Origin: Meghimatium bilineatum
Lineage: Eukaryota; Mollusca; Gastropoda; Stylommatophora; Philomycidae
Direction: 5' to 3'
DNA length: 64,000 bases
NCBI GenBank assembly: GCA_034231615.1
Contig: CM067298.1
Span: forward strand, 54,154,883-54,218,882
Made by a program: the position numbers and the translations under genes. Positions within the stretch are counted from its first letter, which is position 1. Every line of letters begins with the position of its first letter. This document shows positions 9,524 through 45,627 of this stretch, one piece after another. The notes under the pieces are model-generated. The model worked only from the letters and a program-made list of their open reading frames with translations. It made no database searches and was not told where the DNA came from.

Positions 9524-9825
9524 TTACATGAAAATGTTGACGCTGCCTCGTATATTGATTACATCCTGAATTAACTGTTGTGGTGGCTCTGACTGAAACA
9601 CACGATCAGTATTAGCCTGTTCAGTTCGTTTCAAGTCATTCAATTTTTCTATATTTTCTGATGAGTTATTTGATTCGGCTATATGGCGGAGAGGTACAAA
9701 ATATGTCTCGAACAGCCAATGTGTCAGATTTAATTTCCGCTGTACACTCTGACCATTCCAAAAGAAATGACAAGTTACTTCCGTAAGTACTGCCTCGAAA
9801 ATCACCGCAGATGAGTAACTATTTT
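9524..9825 (-). other. minus-strand open segment, possible class B GPCR tail exon
   Basis: An open frame of about 90 codons ends at a TAA. Near its start it reads FEAVLTEVTCHFFWNGQSVQ and then RKL. This has the spacing and flavour of the class B GPCR TM7 end (FQG..VA..YCF.NGEVQ), followed by a polar tail. The key Q, G and Y are replaced and one or two residues are extra. No clear acceptor AG precedes the segment and it lies opposite in strand to the receptor exons. The second contig repeats only its first part and carries one amino-acid change (F to V). Product otherwise unknown. Confidence 0.3.
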
Positions 9826-9949
9826 ATTATCTATATGTCCAGAGTAGTATATGCTACCACATTTTTGAGAAAACAATTAATGTGTTTATCTTATGTTGTA
9901 ACGTGAATTATTGTTTGTATTATTATATAAAAAAGGATTTAAAAGCCGT

Positions 9950-10186
9950 AGAAGATTGACTTCACTATACTCGGTTTCCCATATGTACTCCGTCCCTCTC
10001 AACGAAGTGGCACGCCGCCTGCCGAGAGTACCAATCATAGCATGTAACTCTGTAGCTTCAAATGATAATCCACAGGGATCTCCGAAAAAAATCCACCTTA
10101 TAAACAAGACGACACGAGCCGGATTCGAACCCGTGACTTCTTGAACACAAGTTGAACAGCTTAACCACTACGCCAGGGAGATCCCC
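9950..10186 (-). repeat. T1 tRNA-derived SINE
   Basis: On the minus strand CCCTGGCGTAGTGGTTAAG (A-box-like) and GGGTTCGAATCC (perfect B box) lie at tRNA-like spacing, near the element's 5' end. The body continues beyond the tRNA-like part through GGATTTTTTTCGGAGATCC. A related, more decayed copy lies at about 51335-51450. No proper anticodon stem is formed, so I do not call a functional tRNA. Confidence 0.65.
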
Positions 10187-10579
10187 TGTATTATTAAATG
10201 CCTATGCCGATTCCAACCTTTATGACCCAAATTTATCATGAACTATTGTTTTTGTTCCCGGGGGTTGACATATTTCTTTCTACACATGTATCCCCTAAAA
10301 TTATCACTTGATCTCACTAAACGTCAATAAGGCGATAAAACCTCGATTATATAAATATCAATTCCACATTATGTCACTGTGACGGTATGGTGCAAAGCCC
10401 GTCTGTGATGGTCGTGGTGCCGGGCTCACATCCTGTCGAAGGCATTTGTGAATCCTGGCCATTCAGAAAGCAATAGCGAACTATTGAACATATTTATATT
10501 GCGAATAAAATCACTACAGACAATACTGCTGGGTTTTAATGGCTACGTCCTGAATATGATATGCTACCAACTCGTGTAA

Positions 10580-10684
10580 CTATATATTATATATATATAT
10601 ATATATATATATATATATATATATATATATATATATATATATATATATATATATATATATATATATATATATATATATATATAT
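10580..10684. repeat. (TA)n microsatellite
   Basis: About 100 bp of almost pure TA. It is longer in the second copy (28807-28927). Confidence 0.98.
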
Positions 10685-10804
10685 TTCACTATAGATATAT
10701 AAGGGGGGGATTTCTGGAATGCTTAGTGAGAAATATCCCAAAACTTTTGAGGGAAGGAAATCCCCTACATTGTGGTATATTCCAAAACATCACAATTATG
10801 TTTC

Positions 10805-11125
10805 AGTATAAAAAGAATCGCATGTGGGTTTTAGAATTAAAAATACATCACATGCAGGCGTAGGTACACAACGCATCACATCTAGGCTTCAGTATAAAAA
10901 AAGAATCACATGTAGACTTCAGTATAAAAAAAGAATCACATGTAGACTTCAGTATAAAAAAACATCACATGTCGGTTTCAGTACCAAAAAATCACATCTA
11001 GGTGAAAGTATAGAAAAGAATCGCATGTAGGTTTCAGTATAAAAAATACCATATGTAGGTTTTAGTGCACACAGCATTACATCTAACCTTCAGTATAAAA
11101 AAACAGCACATGTAGGCTTCATTAT
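10805..11125. repeat. minisatellite, about 30-bp unit
   Basis: Tandem units of the form TTCAGTATAAAAAAAGAATC plus ACATGTAGGC. Unit number and sequence differ slightly from the second copy at 29045-29350. Confidence 0.85.
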
Positions 11126-42277: not shown

Positions 42278-42434
42278 TTTCAAAAGGGATGCCGAATCAT
42301 TTACATCATGACACGCTATTCATGGATGTGCAACTGTGTGTGGATGTGCATAGAAGGATTCCATTTGTATAGACTGATCAACCATGTCTTCGTAGCTCCT
42401 AAATCTATTTTAAGTTATTATTTCATTGGCTGGT
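42278..42434 (+). CDS. class B GPCR exon: TM3, ICL2 and start of TM4 (contig B copy)
   Basis: Counterpart of 24337-24493, with one silent change. This copy joins forward without a gap to the TM4 exon at 47389: its final T plus TG gives a Leu codon, reading IGWLAPTLP. A gene model should therefore use this copy or merge it with contig A. Confidence 0.9.
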
Positions 42435-42684
42435 GTGAGTATACTTTTAAAAGCATTGTTTGTGTTCATTTTAATGTCCAAAGTCATATTCAGTGATGCA
42501 TACATATTGTCTTGTGTATGCGTGTGTGCTTGCGTGCGTACGTGTGTGTATGCGTGTGCCTGCGTGTATGTGTGTCCACAATATATATTCATATCTGTGG
42601 CCAATGCAGGTGTGCTGCCACGGGAAAGATAGTCGTTCAGAGTATCCACGATGAATATAACGGTCTGAAAATTATATGTCACTT

Positions 42685-42775
42685 AATATATATATATATA
42701 TATATTTATATATATAAATATATATATATATATATATATATATATATATATATATATATATATATATATATATAT
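42685..42775. repeat. (TA)n microsatellite (contig B copy)
   Basis: Counterpart of 24744-24846, shorter by several repeats. Confidence 0.97.
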
Positions 42776-42779
42776 GCTT

Positions 42780-44340
42780 GTATCTGTCAGTCTTCTGTTT
42801 ACCGTGCCTTTTGTTAAGATAGGACACATGATCGCTTCTCTCCATGAATGTGGTACATTACCTATGCCCCAACTGTAGTTGTACATCTGTAGAAATGTAT
42901 ATATTGCTGGATGCCCTATGTTTTTTAAGCATGCCATTGGTAATGCCGTCCAGTCCTTGTGCGTCTCTATTTTTTTAGTATTCTATAGATACGTTTAGTT
43001 CTTCTAACTGGGATAATTTAGACATGACATCTGGACAGTTTGTGTCGTTTTGCCGAAGTGATTTTTTTTCTTTTTCTTAGCGAATTTTTCGTTGTCTGCA
43101 TGCACTGACGGTAATGATAATTTCTTTTCTATAGGATTCTGCAAACATTGTCTGCTGTTTGGTGGCCAGTTCAGAGTTTACCTGTATTGTAATTGTTGCT
43201 GAGAGCTGATATCATCATGCAGTTGTTTGTTTCCACAATGTTCTTCCTTGCTTTTAAAAGTTTAATGTGTGTGTTTTCTCGTCCATTCTTCCCTGTGTTT
43301 ATGTCTTTTCTTTATTGAACTTTGCTTTGGTATTGTGTATTGATCTGTGGTTTTGTTGTGATAGTTGCTTCTATTACGTTCTTCAGTGAGTTATCCCTGT
43401 AGTTTTTGTAATGTGTTCTCCAATATGGTACATGATTCTTCCTCGCTTCTATTGGTATTGTCTACTTAGCTGCTTTAAGTATTCATTTATTAAAATTCCT
43501 GCCATTTATGTTGATATCTCTACATGTTACTTGAATACCTCTTGTGAGTAGGTGTGCTCCGTGTTTATATATGTGCTAGCTTGCTTTTTTGTAGCTCGAT
43601 CTTGGGTTAGTTGGTACTGTAATTATGGTTTTGTTCACATGTATAATGATTGGGCGATTATCACTATCACCACACTGTTGACGTATTGTTATTTCTACTA
43701 TTTCGGCCAGTTCTGGGGCGCAGAATGTCAGGTCTCGGGTAGAGATGCTATGCCATTTTTTTATAACGAGCTGCTGAATCATGTTGATTATTGGGGAGGA
43801 TTACGTTTGTTGTAATTTTGCCAGTTATGTAGCTGCTCTCCTCTTCTGTCTAAATTAGTATGGCCCCAGCTTTAGGAGTGGCTATTAAAATCTCCCACTG
43901 CAAGGAAGTGTTTGATGGAGATGTTAATACTAGTTATGTTTAATAGGATGCTATTTGGGCAGTAAAAGTTTAGTATGTGAAATTCAAGCACAATTTTCTT
44001 TATGTGAATTATCGGATATTTAGCGCCTTCCTTGTTTTTTTTTAAATGTTCGTTTCTGTGTCACTAATATTATCTTAATCATTCGAACTTTCATGTCAAC
44101 TCTAAAACATTGGTAACCTCGTATCTTTATGGATAATTTTTTTATTTAGGTGGGTCTCATGTATGCAGCAAATACTTATATCTTTCTGGTGCAAGGTGTT
44201 TTCTATTTCTATTGTTTGTTTTGTTAATTTCCCTTACAATCCAGTGCATGGTGTTTAGAGGGGGTTTCGTTCTGTCTGTCTGGCCAGTCGCTTTCCTCTT
44301 CTTATCAATGTTTTAATGTCAATATTTTCACAAAATAGTA
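42780..44340 (-). pseudogene. old I-clade LINE copy (contig B copy)
   Basis: Counterpart of 24850-26400, with the same 3' truncation. Confidence 0.75.
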
Positions 44341-45627
44341 AGCACGAAATATGATATACACTGTCAGAATTCCAGCCTCTGATAGCTATAATACTAATTT
44401 GCTCTTTGCTAACTTTGTACGTGCTATCCTAATCACCTTCAAACGACAAATGAATCTTTTTCAACAATTTACCACAAACTCTCACTGAAGCACTTTGGCG
44501 TTTAACCGTTATTATAGCTCATTGAGGCAGCGATTCTCAAACGGCGCTATATAGCTCATAATGACTGCGAAAATTGACATGACGTATTTTATATTAGGGC
44601 TGAATATTAAGGGAAACACTGAATTGTTTAAGTGGATTCAGAAAGGTCACGTTATAGATTATTTTGAAGCACGATGTGTATTCTCATAAGCAAAGTACAT
44701 ATTGCAACAACAATATTTCATTAAACGTCCTCAAACAGAAATTTGGGAATCATGACCGACTTTAGCTTAAGGGATGTGGCCTAAACCCGTTCCTGCGTCA
44801 GAATATATGATGACTCCATGGACCCAATTTTCTTTCTCCATTAATCACTATTTGTGCCAATGAAAAAACCGATACGTCGAATCAGCAAAAAGTGACGAAT
44901 CGGTCAGAGGTTAGCACACAATTCTTGTATAAAATCCAATGGTTTGAAAGTGGGACACGGACTGCCTATACGTTGATAACCACTGATGTAACAGATATTT
45001 TAGAATTATTGCTGTGCTTTTATCCCTTGTGTATTGGTCTTGGCGTCCATATCTTTCTACTATGTTGTTCGACTCATGTTGTATGTAGTCCAGTTTAGTG
45101 CTTTCTAGGAATTAAAGTAGATTTTACCACGTGTACACTCAATCAACCTGTTGAATTTTAAATCATCCTTCTTGTGTGTGAGAGGGCGTGCTAACATACG
45201 TGCCTGAGCGTGAGTATGTGAAGGCATTTTGTAGTAGTAGTGTTATGCCAGTTTAAAACCAGTTTTCCATATTCAAAAGCAATGTCAATGTATTTTGTAA
45301 TTATCCTAGCAAATATATGCCTTAGAGATGATATTATTTTTTCGTTTGCTACTAGTTTTATACTAAACAATAGTTTTTATTGGGTGCTTCTTTTTTTAAA
45401 TATATACAATTTTTTTGTTAGGTATTGCGTTTTTTTCAAATATATTTTTTCCCCAAATAAGTGATAACTTCTGTTATTTGTGTTTATTTTCTAAATAAAG
45501 TCCTTAGGAATTGTTGTTTTTTTCTAAGTACATTAAATGTCAATATATTTTTCACTAGTTTGCGTGTGGCAAATTTCAACAGCTACAGAACGCAATTCAC
45601 GCTCCTTAAATCACATGATTTGGTATT

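Follow-up and report, generated by a model that had tools for sequence, protein, structure and literature searches.

False duplications of the ‘heterotype’ kind, as described in PMC9516828, are recognized by halved read depth, discordant reads, one-copy k-mers, and a gap that separates the copies. Heterozygous overlaps, according to the purge_dups paper (PMC7203741), are not identified by Purge_Haplotigs, and the Purge Haplotigs paper speaks of contigs that are flagged for reassignment (PMC6267036). The subject here is an apparent duplication of about 18 kb within a slug genome assembly, one that almost certainly is an artefact of this known kind rather than a real feature, and which as biology is ordinary.

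The assembly is that of Meghimatium bilineatum, published as 32 scaffolds and 1.61 Gb (PMC12407731) and consisting, as analyzed, of 1,612,235,226 bases in 32 sequences. According to its description (PMC10770140), the sequenced slugs were wild-collected, k-mer heterozygosity was 1.05% with a genome size by k-mers of ~1.5 Gb, and HiFi data came to 71.33 Gb with a mean read of 18,638 bp. A hifiasm assembly of 1.80 Gb was reduced by Purge_Haplotigs to 1.63 Gb and then scaffolded using 3D-DNA with JuiceBox, giving 25 chromosomes plus 7 unanchored scaffolds. Anchored contigs number 2,521, with 330 making up chromosome 1 (Table 3, PMC10770140). Duplicated BUSCOs are also reported, 842 of 5,295 (15.9%; PMC10770140). 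These are given little weight here as evidence, however, because the ancestral genome duplication of land snails and slugs (PMC12328838) raises them too.

Overlap geometry at a chromosome 1 gap

By ‘the window’ is meant the whole stretch of DNA analyzed, i.e., the 64,000 nucleotides found at positions 54,154,883-54,218,882 of C1 (chromosome 1). It contains a single run of Ns, a scaffolding gap of exactly 100 bases (27706-27805). Copy A (9579-27705, 18,127 bp, plus strand) is the gap-facing end of the left contig and copy B (27806-45627, 17,822 bp, plus strand) is the gap-facing start of the right contig. BLAST and MAFFT place the two in the same orientation and align them over their whole lengths, with the first difference occurring only at column 122 of the alignment and with the final 55 columns all identical. 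The homology therefore runs up to both gap-facing ends, touching the last base of A as well as the first base of B, such that the gap is its sole inner limit. Homology which is limited in this way, on both inner sides, has the appearance of overlapping contig ends. An earlier note on this DNA had described near-identical, direct copies with exactly 100 Ns between them, and homology starting right after the gap and ending right before it. Alignment ends and N-run check agree with that description, and its coordinates for both copies prove exact to the single base.

What is seen, then, is that both members of the duplicated pair lie on one scaffold and are separated by an assembly gap, and that their dovetail homology is limited by contig ends and lacks internal breakpoints. 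Near-identical, direct copies lying side by side would be seen as well with a true 18-kb tandem duplication for which the gap happened to fall exactly at the junction. With a true tandem segmental duplication, however, one looks for a sequenced junction of unit 1 with unit 2 and for breakpoints that are independent of gaps. Here the junction is the N gap, and both of the gap-facing homology ends lie exactly at that gap, such that both breakpoints of a true tandem would have to fall upon it. In addition, HiFi reads averaging 18.6 kb (PMC10770140) should easily span a junction between copies that are 2% different. A true 18-kb tandem duplication is on these grounds highly improbable.

The same argument, that breakpoints would not be expected to coincide with a gap, had been made in the earlier note. 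It does rule out a complete tandem unit of 18 kb, yet it leaves standing a larger, real duplication with a missing middle. That is, the left contig could end within unit 1 of a larger tandem or segmental duplication, and the right contig could start within unit 2, with the A/B overlap being only that part which is present in both contigs. No coincidence of breakpoints is needed for such a lost-middle duplication, and the dovetail geometry fits it equally well as it fits alleles. It would require, though, that tens of kilobases went missing despite 71 Gb of HiFi reads (PMC10770140).

Copy number in the assembly bears on this as well. Probes were searched against the genome with only the best ~40 candidates scored. 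Three probes taken from inside the overlap (of 501, 600, and 600 bp) had two near-identical places each, corresponding to A and B on C1. For one of these probes there was no further match; for the other two, the further matches are interspersed repeats that extend over only a portion of the probe, at 90-96%. The left flank of the overlap (8779-9578, plus strand) has one near-identical place among the best 40 of 4,055 candidates, the 39 other listed matches being a repeat at 79-82%. The right flank (45628-46427, plus strand) likewise has one near-identical place, its 6 other matches being short and of 74-77% identity. Sequences just beyond the overlap thus are found once each, which speaks against a larger duplication, though sequence that had been lost would stay invisible to such a search.

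Divergence between the copies, and repeats in and near them

Over the aligned bases of A and B there are 17,266 matches and 355 mismatches, i.e., 2.01% difference (355/17,621), along with 60 indel events that total 707 columns. The divergence is patchy, with mismatch per 500 bp ranging from 0.2% to 5.4% (variance/mean of 4.8 over 35 such intervals), and with a longest identical run of 734 bp versus a maximum of 588 in 2,000 uniform placements of an equal number of events. Such patchiness is as expected of recombining alleles, though gene conversion between real copies could equally produce it. Homopolymers account for 16 of the indels and short tandem repeats for 4; a further 7 are of at least 15 bp, and the other 33 are short. 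Tandem arrays differ in length as well: a 41-bp array has 13.9 units in A (12221-12787, plus strand) and 7.9 in its counterpart in B (30453-30773, plus strand), a TA array has 60 versus 68 units, and an AT array has 51 versus 45. Both the unequal tandem-repeat lengths and the scattered single-base differences that the earlier note had pointed to are therefore real. A 159-bp piece of A (13495-13653), lying outside of all listed tandem arrays, is absent from B.

The 355 substitutions, together with the altered array lengths, exceed what HiFi consensus error should yield, and 44 of the 60 indels lie outside of homopolymers. It follows that a homotype false duplication, that is, one haplotype assembled twice through read errors, has a negligible probability here, even as it is a recognized class (PMC9516828). 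Allelic difference, by contrast, accommodates these values, a patchy 2.01% versus a reported genome mean of 1.05% (PMC10770140) being high yet plausible at one locus. That the copies differ by roughly double the mean heterozygosity published for the genome nevertheless counts against their being haplotypes. Overlaps which escape merging should, however, be biased toward divergent places.

Most divergent of all is an interspersed repeat at 15421-16660 of A, where the copies differ by 4.86% (60/1,235) versus 1.80% elsewhere (295/16,386). Within this repeat, near A 15938 and B 33765, there is a 107-bp tandem array at which B has 106 bp extra. A further copy of the repeat lies ~34 kb upstream of A's, and in the window extended by 20 kb to each side no other match more than 1.5 kb away exceeds 1,328 bp, this longest one being to the same repeat. 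What had been described previously as a differing ‘LINE tail’ thus does involve a real length difference, the 106 bp, while the LINE label itself was not confirmed. Three open frames of A or B matched no family in Pfam. Out of six open frames of the window that were compared with Pfam, the two that matched both come from a LINE found outside of the duplication, a LINE-like element on the minus strand (55816-59650) with a 1,016-aa frame for endonuclease and reverse transcriptase, overlapped by a 279-aa frame for RNase H. An Rfam scan of the whole window returned no family.

Other repeats of the window can be noted in passing. A 44-bp unit is present in 24 copies at 52442-53511, and adjoining this array, at 51992-52442, is an inverted relative (87-89%) of the repeat found at 15422-15871 and 33270-33697. 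Two short interspersed repeats (20080-20325 and 28156-28405) each have at least 38 other places in the genome at 90-96% identity and probably represent young families. An (AT)n array at 46464-46572 lies some 840 bp past the position which matches the end of contig A, and may be linked to that contig's stop.

Overlapping contigs at two other gaps

As the geometry at C1 is also compatible with a lost-middle duplication, recurrence was sought elsewhere. The genome was scanned for Pfam families and near-identical, neighboring pairs were chosen by eye from the resulting listings.

With PF00153 (mitochondrial carrier), two matches on C22 lie 14,965 bp apart and have the same score, range, and open frame. 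Between them is a 100-N gap (C22:87,712,260-87,712,359), across which two stretches, 1,067 and 1,135 columns in length, agree at 99.3% and 99.1%. For sequence found between arrays, one part differs at 1 of its 375 aligned bases and a second, which also has 162 gap columns, at 9 out of 1,512. One mitochondrial carrier exon thereby is doubled at this gap, with both copies encoding an identical protein (C22:87702388-87727623). The homology continues until the left contig enters a 28-bp array of ~249 units, which makes up its final 7.0 kb. At the corresponding place the right contig contains less than a single unit. No further 28-bp units were found in 24.6 kb of the right contig, in a search that allowed at most 4 substitutions on both strands as far as 87,730,000 and at most 3 on the plus strand as far as 87,737,000. 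The left contig's final 7.0 kb therefore is without a counterpart in those 24.6 kb, which is a point against haplotypes. The right contig, in turn, starts in a 30/42-bp array of ~5.6 kb, of which there is ~0.6 kb in the left contig.

It is conceivable, if somewhat doubtful, that contig breaks in this slug are often set by haplotype-specific minisatellite expansions such as these. Were that the case, then heterozygous minisatellite expansions of several kilobases would be a common allelic difference in this species. They would also be a direct cause of many false gene duplications, raising BUSCO duplicates beside the remnants of the old whole-genome duplication.

With PF00001 (GPCR), two matches on C18 lie 31,323 bp apart, are nearly equal in score, and have five internal stops each. 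Again there is a 100-N gap between the copies (C18:38,756,362-38,756,461). The left contig's final 600 bp, its very last base included, have their match inside the right contig (38,786,583-38,787,206; 96%), and the right contig's first 600 bp have theirs, starting from base 9, inside the left contig (38,726,361-38,726,950; 98%). The contigs thus overlap by ~30 kb (C18:38726361-38787206), with a GPCR-like sequence containing internal stops doubled as a consequence. It is because of the length of this overlap that the likeness between the ~18 kb of overlap on C1 and one mean HiFi read is suggestive only.

Both of these pairs, i.e., two of two, thus have a 100-N gap between their copies and overlapping contigs around that gap, with the overlap at C18 seen from both sides and that at C22 in sequence between arrays. 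Were gaps placed uniformly, the chance of one falling in the interval would be ~1.5% for C22 and ~3.3% for C18, as based on 90 gaps for chromosome 22 (88.69 Mb) and 48 for chromosome 18 (44.30 Mb), using contig counts from Table 3 of PMC10770140. The pairs were picked for their duplicated look and therefore provide no rate of overlaps per gap. What they show is that those close, near-identical pairs which were tested are located on gaps, and this does not imply what share of gaps have overlaps. Overlapping contigs at C22 and C18 do, however, point to a general cause in the assembly, and it is this recurrence, not geometry, which disfavors a lost-middle duplication at C1. Such a duplication is possible but unlikely.

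Among nine multi-exon loci from a PF00118 (CCT/chaperonin) scan no adjacent, repeated exon set was seen by eye, and therefore not every gene is affected. In 29 other loci that were looked at there were no 100-N gaps; four of these loci contain N runs of another kind, 2,500 to 10,000 bases long, which perhaps represent withheld sequence.

Additional pairs were noted along the way. GPCR matches at C23:33429062 and 33477539 (to 33478096) are 48 kb apart, with scores of 109.6 and 109.5 and equal open frames, and are a candidate overlap. A pair from the same scan at C16:30372462 and 30383567, with scores of 163.5 and 162.6 and open frames of 690 and 663, perhaps are real paralogues. Less equal-scoring close pairs or clusters are present, among the matches listed, for example at C7:3.98-4.20, C2:72.06-72.10, C22:85.35-85.37, and C24:47.18-47.20 Mb for the GPCR scan, and one is present at C25:66.51-66.56 Mb for PF00153. 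Separately, mitochondrial DNA has a nuclear copy at C2:121989805-121990428 which includes part of COX1, the sole COX1 match found in the assembly, and its adjoining frames presumably resemble ND2 and ND4.

Two probable haplotypes in series, and comparison with described artefacts

The reading we prefer, and consider very probable, is that of a false heterotype (haplotypic) duplication, with A as one haplotype of the overlap and B the other, found at overlapping contig ends. This is what the earlier note had proposed in suggesting two unmerged haplotypes, a proposal that gains support from the geometry, the divergence, the published heterozygosity, the purge tool employed, and the two further gaps with overlapping contigs. 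Coming from the present analysis are the sequence itself, the overlap with its exact limits, the divergence, the copy number in the assembly, and the overlapping contigs at two other gaps. Coming from papers are read type, assembler, purge tool along with its limits, and heterozygosity. Also in favor of haplotypes is that the assembly is of 1.61 Gb versus a k-mer size of ~1.5 Gb, both as reported (PMC10770140).

The course of events can be pictured as follows. Two contigs from a wild-caught, diploid slug would carry opposite haplotypes, with their ends overlapping by ~18 kb. The assembler would have left these two overlapping contigs unmerged, and the purge step would not have handled partial overlaps of contig ends. 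Hi-C scaffolding would then have ordered both contigs in series with a 100-N placeholder between them. In the animal, the locus would be present once per haplotype. The exact graph event, as well as that reads would be absent across the gap as assembled, we infer.

The locus is of use principally as a quality flag or indeed warning for this assembly, as an artefact of this sort can make single genes appear to be doubled. At least one other gap does double part of a real gene, i.e., the mitochondrial carrier exon on C22. Given the genome duplication in the ancestry of land snails and slugs (PMC12328838), false allelic copies could pass for retained or instead recent duplicates. An inexpensive remedy is to check both sides of each gap for dovetail homology between the contig ends.

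As compared with described artefacts, the false heterotype duplication of PMC9516828 consists of allelic copies which are adjacent on one scaffold and which have a gap between them, as A and B most likely are. The criteria of that paper are completed by half depth, discordant reads, and haplotype-specific k-mers, which are measured from reads; the gap is the mark that is seen here in the assembly sequence. That paper proposes as well that false heterotype duplication occurs in more divergent regions. Also close is the target of purge_dups as that tool's paper presents it (PMC7203741), i.e., a partial overlap between primary contigs which is kept and then carried into scaffolds. That very probably is the situation here also, with no difference seen between the two.
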